Source: a virus | Reading direction: 5' to 3' (one strand) | IMG/VR virus record: IMGVR_UViG_3300037189_020067 | Span: 1-40,806 of that record | DNA: 40,806 bases | Shown here: piece by piece, positions 1,608-8,780 of the stretch | Numbering within the stretch: position 1 is the stretch's first letter | Layout: the number at the start of each line of letters is the position of its first letter | Notes under the pieces: generated by a model | The model's database searches: none | Seen by the model: the letters and a program-made list of their open reading frames with translations, nothing else | Told to the model about the DNA's origin: nothing | Translations under genes and position numbers: made by a program

Positions 1608-1796
1608 TTATTCAATAATATTGACTTTAGCCTTTGCCTGTCTATTGCCAGAGCCTTTTAACTGAATTTTGTATTTTTTCAAATAACTCATCAAAGTTGG
1701 CATGGTAATTTTAAGAATTTGACACAATTCTCTATTCTTTTTTGTTAAATAAAGTTGCTTTAATTCCGATTGGGTTATTGTTAATTTTGTTTTCAT
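1608..1796 (-). CDS. Small helix-turn-helix DNA-binding protein
   Basis: A 62-residue basic protein. Residues about 21-45 (NRELCQILKITMPTLMSYLKKYKI) have the spacing of a helix-turn-helix: helix, a turn around K29-I30-T31, then a recognition helix PTLMSYLKKY. The C-terminus is basic (KGSGNRQAKAKV). No sensor or dimerisation domain is present, so it is not a CI-type repressor. It lies just upstream of the TGGGTT cluster, and its stop codon touches the last repeat, so it may bind those repeats or regulate the dnaB operon. No clear Shine-Dalgarno sequence precedes the ATG. DNA binding is likely; role unknown. Confidence 0.6.
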   Translation of the reverse strand: MKTKLTITQSELKQLYLTKKNRELCQILKITMPTLMSYLKKYKIQLKGSGNRQAKAKVNIIE

Positions 1797-1835
1797 AAAA
1801 GTAAAAGTAAAGATTAAATTTAATCAGTCAAGAGA

Positions 1836-2189
1836 TTATTTTGTAAAAGCTGAAAAGTTTTTGATTAAATGAATTAAATCTAAAAAACGTTGAAAAGCTA
1901 TTTTGAAAATAATTTTACCAAAATATTTTCTAAGAATTATTCTAACTTTTAACTGGTCAATTTGGTTTTCTTCAAAATTTATTTCTGATAATTTTTTGCC
2001 AGTAATGTATTCGGCTAATCTGATAATTTTTTTTCTATTTCGTGAGTATTCTCGAACCAGTACAGTCTTGTCTTTTGCATAAATTAATTGAACGCTACAA
2101 ACAGCGCGCAACGCTTGATTCATCAATTTTATTTCTTCATCTAGTATTCTGTGCGATAATCTTAAAAGATTTCCTTGATCGTCTTGCAT
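1836..2189 (-). CDS. Hypothetical protein, basic, early region
   Basis: I chose the internal ATG at 2189 (117 residues, beginning MQDDQGNLLRL) because AAGGGGAC stands 4 bases before it. The reading frame is open to an ATG at 2240, but that upstream start has no ribosome-binding site and the extra 17 codons overlap an inverted repeat. The product is strongly basic in its middle and C-terminal part (VREYSRNRKKIIRLAEY, RIILRKYFGKIIFKIAFQRF), with a hydrophobic-basic alternation suggesting helices. I do not recognise the family. It is the first gene downstream (in transcription direction) of the structured 2245-3040 region. Its start looks subject to RNA-level control (see 2193-2271). Confidence 0.5.
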   Translation of the reverse strand: MQDDQGNLLRLSHRILDEEIKLMNQALRAVCSVQLIYAKDKTVLVREYSRNRKKIIRLAEYITGKKLSEINFEENQIDQLKVRIILRKYFGKIIFKIAFQRFLDLIHLIKNFSAFTK

Positions 2190-2192
2190 ACT

Positions 2193-2271
2193 GTCCCCTT
2201 GTAGTTTGGCGATCTGCGACAGGGGACTACCGCAGACCATAATAAAATTCTAAATTAAAAAGTCGTCCCCT
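2193..2271 (-). promoter_or_regulatory. Competing inverted repeats masking a ribosome-binding site
   Basis: On the minus strand, AGGGGAC occurs at 2271-2265 and again at 2199-2193, with its complement GTCCCCT between them at 2227-2221. The central copy can pair 7 bp with either flank. The downstream copy is the Shine-Dalgarno sequence of the gene starting at 2189. Pairing with the upstream copy would free it; pairing downstream would hide it. A second small hairpin TCTGCG/CGCAGA overlaps the central copy. This is the geometry of a translational switch, but it may instead be a repeated operator. Confidence 0.4.
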
Positions 2272-3040
2272 ACTTCTTAATTTCTTTCACCGCTCTCAAC
2301 CCCTATTTCTAAGAATCAAGATAAAACCAACGCCCCTAGCCCGAGTTTCCAATTTCTTGGCTGGCTCTCCTAAAAGTCCCACGGTTTGCCTTGCGACTTA
2401 ACGCTAACGATTGCGCTGGTTGTTTTATTCTTAATTCATATTTCTAAGAATCAAGATAAAAGCGAGACCTGCCAAGGCATAAACTTTGACAATTCGCCAA
2501 GTGTATCTAGCCAATGCTAAATCACAATTTTATTTACCCCCCGCCTTTGCGTGCGGGGCTTGTCCTTTCGGAATTTAAGAAAGCCTAATTTTTCAGCTTT
2601 CCTGCTATTTCTAGCTAGTTTGGCAAGATTTTATTGGCTTTCGCCTCACGGCAGGAGACTTGCCAGCCCCTTAGTCCGAAGCTTGAACTGTTATTTCACT
2701 TGTCCACCTTGCGGCAGGAAAATATTTGTCAGGAAGCTTACGCATTTCTGCGCTTTTCTATACACATTTTTTAGATATGTATAGAAAACCAAAAAAATCT
2801 ATATGTATTTCCCGAAAGCTTTTTTACGACTTTCGGGTTAGCCTTAGAAATAACTAAGGCACACTTCCCTTTTAGAAGCGTGTTTTATCCCCCGCTACGC
2901 AGTGAATAAATTATCGAAGTTGGCGAGAAAATAGTGATTACCCGCCAACCAACAAACCTAGTTGCAACTAAGCTTGCTCTAGCTCATCAACTATGTTTCA
3001 AGTGAGAGGATCTAGTCGTATAGTTTAAAACTACCGCCTA
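2245..3040 (-). ncRNA. Candidate large structured non-coding RNA (~800 nt)
   Basis: No convincing gene lies here, yet the stretch is dense in perfect hairpins. Read on the minus strand, five stems are capped by GAAA tetraloops: CGCA/TGCG (2741-2752), GGC/GCC (2636-2645), GCTA/TAGC (2604-2615), TCC/GGA (2563-2572) and CCAA/TTGG (2349-2360). Others are an 11-bp stem (2754-2764 with 2778-2788), CCCGAAAG/CTTTCGGG (2811-2837), GCCTTAG/CTAAGGC (2841-2860), GTTGGCG/CGCCAAC (2919-2949) and CCCCGC/GCGGGG (2539-2558). On the plus strand the same loops read TTTC, so the minus strand, that of the neighbouring genes, is favoured. Length, ornateness and phage setting resemble GOLLD and ROOL RNAs; I cannot assign a family. 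A weak promoter (TTGTAA, 17 bp, TAAACT) overlaps the 5' end near 3020-3050. Ends are approximate. Confidence 0.6.
2304..2461. repeat. Exact 23-nt direct repeat, two copies
   Basis: The 23 bases at 2304-2326 recur identically at 2439-2461, 135 bp apart; the core is CTAAGAATCAAGATAAAA. Both copies lie in the 3' part of the putative RNA. On the minus strand each copy contains TTCTTA and is followed by a complementary TAAGAA (7-bp pairing near 2426-2451 for one; 6-bp, longer loop, near 2274-2312 for the other), so both could form equivalent hairpins. Confidence 0.8.
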
Positions 3041-3044
3041 AAAA

Positions 3045-3197
3045 TTACAAATCAAGTTCTTGTTTTACTGAATTTTCAAGCGGTTTAGAAGGCAAATCAT
3101 TATCAAAACTTTCAAGATAACAATGTGCAAAATAAGTTAAACCAACAAAAAAAATGGTTGCTATCGCTAAAAAAATTTTTTCTTTTAAAGTGAACAT
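3045..3197 (-). CDS. Small single-pass membrane protein
   Basis: A 50-residue open reading frame starting MFTLKEKIFLAIATIFFVGL. Residues about 8-25 form one hydrophobic segment preceded by two lysines, then an acidic tail (ESFDNDLPSKPLENSVKQEL). Topology would be N-in with the tail outside the inner membrane. It lies 3 bp after the stop of the next small membrane gene and is followed by the structured region 2245-3040. No family recognised. It is short, but the gene order, strand and membrane character support it. Confidence 0.55.
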   Translation of the reverse strand: MFTLKEKIFLAIATIFFVGLTYFAHCYLESFDNDLPSKPLENSVKQELDL

Positions 3198-3200
3198 TTT

Positions 3201-3326
3201 TTAAAAAAATTTGATTAAGTAAAATGTTAGGCTAAGAATTAAAGAAATTGTAAGCGGTAAAATGATGATTTTTTTGATAAGATCAAGTCGTTCTTGAAGC
3301 TCTTCGGCTTCGGATTTGTAGTCCAT
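3201..3326 (-). CDS. Very small membrane protein with amphipathic N-terminus
   Basis: A 41-residue product: a charged helix MDYKSEAEELQERLDLIKK followed by one hydrophobic segment (about 20-38, IIILPLTISLILSLTFYLI). A strong ribosome-binding site AAGGAG lies 6-7 bases before the ATG, made from the last codons of the upstream gene (its TGA at 3330-3332), which implies translational coupling. Function unknown; a phage-encoded membrane effector or superinfection-exclusion type peptide is possible but not shown. Confidence 0.6.
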   Translation of the reverse strand: MDYKSEAEELQERLDLIKKIIILPLTISLILSLTFYLIKFF

Positions 3327-3329
3327 TTT

Positions 3330-3548
3330 TCACTCCTTAATTTTAAAAGTTTTAAAAGCTGGTTTTCTGCCCCTTTTTGCACCAGTTGGCATTGGTTTAT
3401 TAAATGCTTTGCAGTAAGATTTGATATGAAACCGCAAGCCTTGATGACTTGTGAGCGGTTCAATCATTGCCGCCATTTCGGGAAAGCCTAGATTTTCGGC
3501 GATCATTTTTTCGTAAATTTCGGCAGTTGTAAATTCTTTTTTGTTCAT
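3330..3548 (-). CDS. Hypothetical early protein, basic C-terminus
   Basis: A 72-residue protein starting MNKKEFTTAEIYEKMIAENLGF, with AAAGGAAAT just before the ATG. It is helical in the N-terminal half and basic towards the end (KPMPTGAKRGRKPAFKTFKIKE); GAKRGRKP resembles an AT-hook-like GRKP motif, suggesting nucleic-acid contact. The overlapping frame (74 codons, 3239-3463) was rejected because it lacks a ribosome-binding site and its length conflicts with the coupled small gene downstream. Family not recognised. Confidence 0.65.
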   Translation of the reverse strand: MNKKEFTTAEIYEKMIAENLGFPEMAAMIEPLTSHQGLRFHIKSYCKAFNKPMPTGAKRGRKPAFKTFKIKE

Positions 3549-3564
3549 AATTTCCTTTTTTAAA

Positions 3565-3879
3565 TTAAAGTTTGGTTCGATTTGAAGCCAATGGTCTTTT
3601 TTTTGTTGGAGTTGGTTTATAATCGTTAGATGTTTCTGATAATTTTTTTATATCTTCTTCTAGTAGTGTTTTAAATTTTAATTTAAAACTTTTAAGAAAT
3701 TGTTCAATTTCATCGAAATTTTTAAAAGACTTTAAAACGTTATATCCGCCACTAATATTTTTTTTTGTTATAATGTGCAAAATGCCAGTTTTTTGCTTTG
3801 ATTCTAAAAGTTCTAAATCTAAATCCAAAGCCTCACTAATTTTTTGAAACTTTTGGATTGCGTAAAATTCTTTTATCAT
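3565..3879 (-). CDS. Hypothetical early protein
   Basis: A 104-residue protein with alternating lysine-rich and acidic helices (FQKISEALDLDLELLESKQK; EQFLKSFKLKFKTLLEEDIKKLSE) and a proline/lysine-rich tail (KPTPTKKRPLASNRTKL). GGGGGAA precedes the ATG at a normal distance. It lies 3 bp after the gene ending at 3883. Nothing in it indicates a known fold or enzyme. Part of the leftward early operon. Confidence 0.65.
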   Translation of the reverse strand: MIKEFYAIQKFQKISEALDLDLELLESKQKTGILHIITKKNISGGYNVLKSFKNFDEIEQFLKSFKLKFKTLLEEDIKKLSETSNDYKPTPTKKRPLASNRTKL

Positions 3880-3882
3880 AAT

Positions 3883-4101
3883 TTATTCCCCCAATTTTAA
3901 AAAATCTAAGCGTTCATTAATTCTTGCAAGCATTATTTTGTCGCAAGTTACTGGTACGCCGTTTGCCATTAAATAAACGCCGTCCTGATCCGTTTTAATT
4001 AGCCTGCCGATGTTTAAAGAGCCAAAGATTAATTCGCCTTGCAAGGTTTTCACATGGATTAGCGGTTGGATTTCTTTTTTGATTATAATTTCGTTTTTCA
4101 T
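3883..4101 (-). CDS. Hypothetical early protein, beta-rich
   Basis: A 72-residue protein. The pattern IIIKKEIQPLIHVKTLQGELIFGSLNIGRLIKTDQDGVYLMANGVPVTCDKI suggests a small beta-barrel (several short strands separated by G-S, D-G and N-G turns), followed by one helix (ARINERLDFLKLG). It sits 6 bp downstream of the methyltransferase gene and is probably co-transcribed with it. A role as methyltransferase accessory is only suggested by position. No family recognised. Confidence 0.65.
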   Translation of the reverse strand: MKNEIIIKKEIQPLIHVKTLQGELIFGSLNIGRLIKTDQDGVYLMANGVPVTCDKIMLARINERLDFLKLGE

Positions 4102-6280: not shown

Positions 6281-6375
6281 TTTGTGCCCCTGATTTTATT
6301 ATTATTAATTTCCTTATTCTTTTTAATTCCTTTTAATTCTTAGTCAACAATTATTTTCAATTATTTTTAATTATT

Positions 6376-6406
6376 TTAAGAGCCGTGGTGAGGCTCCCTT
6401 TTTTAT
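6376..6406. terminator. Hairpin with T-run between early genes
   Basis: GAGCC (6380-6384) and GGCTC (6392-6396) form a stem with a 7-base loop. On the plus strand CCTTTTTTATT follows, the shape of a rho-independent terminator. On the minus strand (the gene direction) the trailing tract is TTAAAATAATT, weaker. It lies just after the stop of the ArdC-like gene and could trim the leftward transcript or block antisense transcription. Confidence 0.5.
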
Positions 6407-7146
6407 TCTTGAGTTCCCGCCTTTAAAATCTTACTTGCCGCGCCTAAAATTCTTTTAAAATTGCTTTCTTTTATTTCATCCCCTGCCAGCCAGTTTTTGA
6501 TATAATTTCTTGAAAATTCTAACCCCTCAAAAATTCCCAAGCTTGTTTTTACAATGTAGGCGGTGCCTTCCGCTTCTAACTCTTTTATTGATCTTGGCAA
6601 AAGATTTTCGCCATGATTTAAAGTTTCACCATCTTCGTTTTTATGAAGTAAGCAGTGCGCCATTTCATGAATTGAGGTTTTAAAAAAATCACTTGCTAGG
6701 GGGTTTATTGCTATCAAGTTTTGATTTGGTTTCGCGTACCCTTGGCAATTGCCATTGACCATAGCGAATTTTTCCACCTTAATTTCCAAAGCTGCTAAAG
6801 CCTTTTCTAAGTCAAAATTTGCTGGTAATTCTTGCTGATAATCCGCGCCGCTTGTGTCTGACAATTTGAACCAATTTTTTTTCTTGATGTAAAAAGTTTT
6901 GATCTTTGTTTCATCCTCTTTATCTTTTAAAGATACTGGCAGCATCAATTCAATTGCTTTAGCTCCTTTTTTTACTTGCCGCCCTAAGCCTTGCCAGCCT
7001 TTGTAAGTGTTGATTGGCTCTAATTCTTGCATTTGAACGCTTGCCAGCCATTGGTTGCCTAGTGAGTAATTATGAAATAATTTATAGCATTGCGCCGCTT
7101 TGGCTGGCTTGTCTAAAATTTCGTTTAAAAATTGGTTGTAATTCAT
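6403..7146 (-). CDS. ArdC-type anti-restriction protein with HExxH metallopeptidase domain
   Basis: A 247-residue protein with two parts. Residues 1-95 resemble the ArdC single-strand-DNA-binding domain: W33 (NQWLAS), YKGWQGLGRQVKKGAKAIELMLP at about 48-70, and a Y/F-IKKKNWF block at 85-93. Residues 110-245 are a zincin-like domain with HEMAH at 160-164 (HExxH) and KELEAEGTAYIV at 188-199 carrying a likely third ligand. Known ArdC proteins of plasmids and phages enter with DNA or are made early and protect it from host restriction. The leader is AAACAGGGGCGAAAA. Together with the methyltransferase it forms an anti-restriction set. Confidence 0.85.
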   Translation of the reverse strand: MNYNQFLNEILDKPAKAAQCYKLFHNYSLGNQWLASVQMQELEPINTYKGWQGLGRQVKKGAKAIELMLPVSLKDKEDETKIKTFYIKKKNWFKLSDTSGADYQQELPANFDLEKALAALEIKVEKFAMVNGNCQGYAKPNQNLIAINPLASDFFKTSIHEMAHCLLHKNEDGETLNHGENLLPRSIKELEAEGTAYIVKTSLGIFEGLEFSRNYIKNWLAGDEIKESNFKRILGAASKILKAGTQE

Positions 7147-8705: not shown

Positions 8706-8780
8706 GCCGTGGTAGCACAACAGCAGTGCATCATTCTTGTAAAATGGAGGTTCTGGGTGCAAATCCTAGTCACGGCACCA
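8706..8780 (+). tRNA. tRNA-Thr (anticodon TGT), CCA encoded, unusual D and T loops
   Basis: A full cloverleaf folds: acceptor GCCGTGG/TCACGGC (one G-T), D stem GCAC/GTGC, anticodon stem TCATT/AATGG with loop CTTGTAA (anticodon TGT, reading ACA), a 5-base variable loop, T stem CTGGG/CCTAG, discriminator A and encoded CCA. G1-C72, C2-G71, G35 and U36 fit threonine identity. The D loop AACAGCA is only 7 bases with a single G, so the usual G18-G19 pair is missing, and the T loop TGCAAAT has G in place of T55. It lies between the nuclease gene and terL. Confidence 0.8.

Follow-up and report, generated by a model that had tools for sequence, protein, structure and literature searches.

Structured minus-strand region of the window

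The window, the whole stretch of 40,806 nt of viral DNA that was analysed, carried a succession of stem-closed RNA cassettes and hairpins on the minus strand, followed by an element that directly precedes a downstream gene. In the 5' to 3' order of the RNA, the features were:

2917..3017, minus strand: cassette N, three consecutive stems with conserved GUUGCAAC (8-sequence alignment)
2884..2910, minus strand: cassette D, a 5-bp stem around the invariant 17-nt UCACUGCGUAGCGGGGG (2889-2905)
2841..2883, minus strand: two hairpins, ACACGCUUC...GAAGUGUG and GCCUUAG...CUAAGGC (from the fold; common to L002, L009, L012 and L017)
2811..2837, minus strand: hairpin CCCGAAAG...CUUUCGGG (from the fold; common to L009, L012 and L017)
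2741..2803, minus strand: cassette C, a long U-rich hairpin and CGCAGAAAUGCG, with a GAAA loop
2679..2739, minus strand: cassette J, closing stem AAGCUU/AAGCUU
2617..2678, minus strand: cassette B, found in six contigs of the block comparison, plus L031
2539..2616, minus strand: cassette E, GAAA hairpins with CCGAAAGGAC and CCGCACGCAAAGGCGGGG, found in nine contigs
2427..2457, minus strand: hairpin F, first copy, direct repeat D1 (block comparison)
2325..2421, minus strand: cassette H, closing stem AACCARCGC/GGCGUUGGUU, weak likeness to DUF3800-VII
2293..2322, minus strand: second copy of hairpin F, which ends almost every array on the 3' side (15-sequence alignment)
2191..2275, minus strand: 3' element, a hairpin with loop AGUCCCCU and co-change in most of six versions

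The minus strand of 2241-3045 folded at -267.7 kcal/mol, against -209.6 ± 7.8 kcal/mol for 20 dinucleotide shuffles (z -7.47); the plus strand of the same region gave z -5.87. The GC content of the region was 0.41, compared to 0.35 across the window. The strong minus-strand fold that a first-pass annotation had proposed for 2245-3040 was thereby confirmed (z about -7.5 against shuffled sequence), and the five GAAA hairpins it had listed (2349-2360, 2563-2572, 2604-2615, 2636-2645, and 2741-2752) all read stem-GAAA-stem on the minus strand. Its description of the stretch as gene-free also held, with no ORF of at least 60 aa on the minus strand, and one of 77 aa and smaller ones on the plus strand; a PHROGs search with the ORFs of the region returned no match better than E 0.03.

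Covariation among related phage regions was strong in module N, where 18 of 33 pairs had changed on both sides across the eight aligned sequences and 97% of cells were paired, a level that neither the 500 shuffles nor any slid version approached. The reading of the region as coding, or as a decayed gene, was rejected on this covariation and on the want of convincing protein relatives for the ORFs. Cassette H, with sequences too few and too little varied, had no significant covariation beyond shuffles.

An Rfam scan of the region returned nothing at gathering thresholds, and at E ≤ 5 only a weak full-length DUF3800-VII alignment and trivial matches. Likenesses by eye to a Cas9 sgRNA scaffold, a hammerhead core and a type I-F CRISPR repeat were dropped as chance, the Rfam scan giving only an insignificant CRISPR-DR58 match where it touched on CRISPR-like resemblance. 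The GOLLD, ROOL, OLE and HEARO models found no match in the window region or L002 even with E relaxed to 5, and none that reached the gathering score in other relatives. The possible kinship with GOLLD and ROOL raised at first was not borne out.

Cassette exchange among related phages

Relatives were gathered by two flanking proteins and by DNA patterns of conserved blocks, which brought up the same locus in about 20 IMG/VR contigs. Collecting them by terminase failed, as only the early region was shared; no relationship was detectable between the terminase of the window and those of the relatives, which implies that this early region is common to phages that differ in their structural genes. 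The length of the locus ranged from 0.1 kb to more than 2 kb, and the relatives had the same blocks in differing subsets and order, with borders that coincided with the closing stem of each block. Cassette C was full-length in 11 contigs, the window among them, and short in 23174, while cassette J was also present in 27899 and 09160 and had another cassette in its place in 46009 and 10160. Compared to the window, 46009 had another stem-closed cassette in place of J, B and the first of the E hairpins. That entire stem-closed cassettes have come, gone and changed places between relatives points to a series of small RNAs, and the region breaks down into separable domains instead of folding as a single unit.

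Several arrays contained tRNA genes or other genes among the cassettes. A tRNA-Thr lies at 8706 of the window and a tRNA-Cys between cassettes in the array of L011, so that the association with tRNA noted in the first-pass annotation extended to the relatives, as it did with tRNA-like units between cassettes in L002 (3380-3462) and L003 (~1620-1770), neither of which was called a tRNA by ARAGORN. The L002 unit gave a weak tRNA-Sec alignment, and a T-arm is kept, by eye, in both; it is possible that these two units are decoys for tRNA-targeting nucleases. Small ORFs between cassettes matched Acb2_Tad1_hairpin in L006 (38.5 bits) and L031 (45.9 bits), above the curated cut-off of 27, and one in L004 scored 19.8 bits, below it. 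Acb2 and Tad1 are phage proteins that act as sponges for the signals of CBASS and Thoeris. An ORF that looks HNH endonuclease-like by eye lies between array cassettes in L012 (~6283-6708), and a two-gene insert bounded by 21-bp inverted repeats (GGTGATTATATACTTAACACA) lies within the array of L003 (~1785-3892); neither of its proteins had a Pfam match.

The locus is similar to GOLLD and ROOL (PMC12286853) as a large structured RNA region in a phage, with tRNA nearby or embedded and a variable upstream part; it differs in having no sequence or model match to them and in being made of exchangeable cassettes. A single large, ornate RNA of this type would be a scaffold or cage whose 3' end is conserved and whose 5' part varies, in some cases with a tRNA inside. 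It would fit the size of 0.8–2 kb, the phage setting, the strong fold, the tRNA or tRNA-like inserts, and the near-constant 3' end (hairpin F and a pseudoknot-like element) below a variable upstream part. However, it fits poorly with the lack of an Rfam match, with whole cassettes being deleted, reordered and replaced among relatives, with the interruption of the array by genes (Acb2/Tad1, the HNH-like ORF, and the insert flanked by terminal inverted repeats), and with cassette D and DUF3800-IX existing elsewhere as independent units. We consider it quite unlikely: thermodynamics and covariation uphold a structured minus-strand region, and not one single RNA of the GOLLD/ROOL type.

The near-constant 3' end leads directly into the downstream gene. 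In the 3' element (2191-2275, minus strand), the hairpin loop X' is able to pair with upstream and downstream copies of AGGGGAC, with the partners in stem and loop changing in concert in most of the six versions. Since 2191-2275 is conserved in relatives with unrelated downstream proteins, 2240 is probably not the correct ORF start and the true one is probably the ATG at 2189, just before which the element lies. Judged from sequence, the element resembles a switch for the downstream gene. A conserved, pseudoknot-like element that has two alternative partners and immediately precedes a start codon could suggest that the entire locus is a long regulatory leader of this replication-region gene. 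That reading accounts for 2191-2275 only, since the upstream cassettes vary freely and some are sRNA families found elsewhere, and we hold it to be very unlikely.

BLASTN of the window region and the array of L002 against named phages and plasmids found nothing beyond a 24-nt match in Pseudomonas phage Astolliot (L013 2998-3024). The match is an identical cassette A core (ACGAACCCGAAAGGATCGCACCAG) with a different closing stem, located between tRNA genes, and the spacers of the Astolliot tRNA cluster contain further hairpins. A genome scan with the cassette A motif gave no matches.

Cassette D and DUF3800 genes

The hairpin at 2884-2910 of the window contains the 17-mer TCACTGCGTAGCGGGGG. A scan with this exact 17-mer as the query, which by itself sets the identity of the core among the matches, found it in 33 viral and 66 bacterial stretches from many phyla. 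In almost all of them the loop was closed by differing flanks that pair. Over 73 distinct sequences and six inner pairs, 402 of 438 cells of the closing stem were standard pairs, whereas 1000 shuffles averaged 300 and never exceeded 322. Many of these were G-U pairs, which become mismatches on the other strand, indicating that the sense of the RNA is the minus strand of the window.

In bacteria, the neighbour of D was a gene of ~245 aa belonging to Pfam DUF3800. A profile built from the D-adjoining proteins and run on the 66 bacterial stretches found DUF3800 in 45, and in 39 of the 66 D lay no more than 60 nt from the 3' end of the DUF3800 gene, always in convergent orientation (39/39). RNA motifs of DUF3800 genes were reportedly described by Weinberg and colleagues in 2017 (DUF3800-I, -VII, and -IX in Rfam), and to our knowledge no function has been assigned to the proteins or their RNAs since. 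The DUF3800-VII RNA of genome G057 lies 42 nt past the stop codon and is convergent, as is D, and DUF3800-IX is convergent at the 3' end of the gene in three viral contigs with the whole unit. With its covarying stem and a convergent layout like that of DUF3800-VII and -IX, D behaves as a DUF3800-associated RNA; it is a conserved, covarying RNA beside DUF3800 genes, which is how DUF3800 RNAs are defined genomically. D matched none of the Rfam 15 models, and a published version outside that curation may exist. The phage RNA differs from the DUF3800 motifs in being solitary and in standing in an array among many other cassettes.

DUF3800 proteins have a predicted RNase-H-like fold and have been found with Cas12a2 (Altae-Tran et al., PMC10910872). 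Among 91 proteins adjoining D-DUF3800 units, 8 were HsdR-like and 5 HsdS-like (type I restriction-modification), and some D-linked DUF3800 genes were situated within type I restriction operons. A NotI-like restriction gene adjoins another copy of D.

Copies of D were also found in other contexts. In an uncultured Dehalococcoidia genome, three D hairpins with different stems occur in tandem (L084 4179-4266). In L033, L035, L045, L048, L050 and L051, the loop of a rho-independent terminator (AAAGCGG-D-CCGCTTTTTT) consists of D, and in several related viral contigs this terminator lies downstream of the same gene. Solitary D in the terminator loops of other phages could have a role in transcription or RNA stability, a point against the decoy reading given below.

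The cassettes might alternatively be parasitic or mobile RNA elements, as terminator-loop or hairpin inserts with DUF3800-type nucleases as movers, piling up in one spot without benefit to the phage. The clean, stem-closed borders of the cassettes, their jumps between contexts and the RNase-H-like fold of DUF3800 (PMC10910872) agree with such elements, as does D within the terminator loops of other phages. On the other hand, unrelated phages and bacteria have the 17-nt core unchanged (exact identity being a requirement of the scan) within stems that covary, which implies selection for a binding function, and the arrays adjoin anti-defence genes in a compact genome. An origin as mobile elements is in our view unlikely.

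D was the only cassette of the window with a demonstrated link to DUF3800. Cassette H aligned to the DUF3800-VII model (RF02967) at 21.3 bits (E 0.34) in the window and 17.4 bits in one relative, below the 36.2-bit cut-off, and is not a member of that family by this measure. Covariance models of N and H found no relatives in ~170 DUF3800 loci. Cassettes N, C, J, B, E, F and H of the window may serve other systems or none.

Solitary RNA copies and a putative anti-defence array

None of the 38 phage records with D or an array of the window type carried a DUF3800 gene. The set examined comprised 20 array contigs (including the window), 18 D-bearing viral contigs and Astolliot, i.e., these 38 records and one contig kept only for hairpin F. 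In the array of L025, D was followed directly by a true DUF3800-IX RNA (57.5 bits) and then by the 3' modules of the window, again with no DUF3800 gene. With DUF3800-IX as bait, the complete DUF3800 unit was present in three of nine viral contigs and absent from the other six.

An RNA of another family occurred in the same solitary state. In L032, a phage that also bears D, a terminator between phage genes (1294-1329) is an abiF RNA (RF03085), and this contig encodes no Abi_2 protein; the abiF model had no match in the window and was found only in L032. RNA mimics of type III antitoxins are known from phages, as with pseudo-ToxI of phage TE, and an abiF RNA without Abi_2 in a D-bearing phage is a parallel to them. 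In C. difficile, abiF-motif RNA neutralises the AbiF toxin in cis and in trans (PMC12373285). Both pseudo-ToxI and abiF RNA are small hairpin RNAs that neutralise a protein partner in trans; for DUF3800, toxicity and neutralisation are putative.

The RNA copy without its protein gene in phages, where DUF3800 was present in 0/38 records compared to 45/66 bacterial stretches, is the pattern of a decoy, provided that DUF3800 has a role in defence. Our preferred reading, which we favour with modest confidence, is that the locus is an anti-defence array of many cassettes, whose solitary copies of defence-associated RNAs act on the proteins that normally partner them, by titration or by neutralisation. 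The minus strand of ~3020-2290 is an array of ~10 small, structured cassettes that phages gain, lose and reorder; their RNAs are probably either cleaved out of a single leftward transcript or read as parts of it. At least one cassette, D, is a phage-borne, solitary copy of the RNA encoded convergently at the 3' end of bacterial DUF3800 genes, and each hairpin would retain the protein-recognised part of a defence-associated RNA, supplied without the protein. During infection, phage D RNA would bind the host DUF3800 protein, which would be neutralised if the RNA is an antitoxin, or titrated if it is a guide or activator; such binding would imply that the array blocks several RNA-dependent host defences at once. 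A broader version, which we put forward only tentatively, is that these arrays are exchangeable and multi-specific, with a separate cassette for each RNA-dependent defence protein, imitating the RNA partner of that protein; several DUF3800 types, AbiF-like systems and tRNA-targeting systems would be among those imitated.

By analogy, such a phage strategy would be closest to antitoxin-RNA mimicry and to Racr, the RNA-based anti-CRISPRs (PMC10651486), which are likewise phage-encoded, solitary copies of an RNA element of the defence system itself. Racr mimics CRISPR repeats, whereas the RNA copied here is associated with DUF3800 and stands side by side with many different cassettes, and its action as a decoy is putative. 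The exchangeable array and the different protein family as target would be new.

If this proposal is correct, the arrays would be an RNA counterpart of anti-defence gene islands, and the remaining cassettes of the window would point to new defences. The solitary phage RNAs beside genes of the anti-CBASS and anti-Thoeris type suggest the hypothesis that DUF3800 is an RNA-linked defence blocked by phage RNA, and part of the structured RNA of phages may be anti-defence arrays and not single giant RNAs. Finding bacterial proteins that pair with the other cassettes would offer a route to further RNA-dependent defences. Cassette P, present in four relatives, resembles an sRNA in the DUF3800 locus L267 (E 0.025-0.1), which is preceded by a promoter-like sequence, and it also resembles a unit adjoining DUF3800-IX in the phage contig L289.
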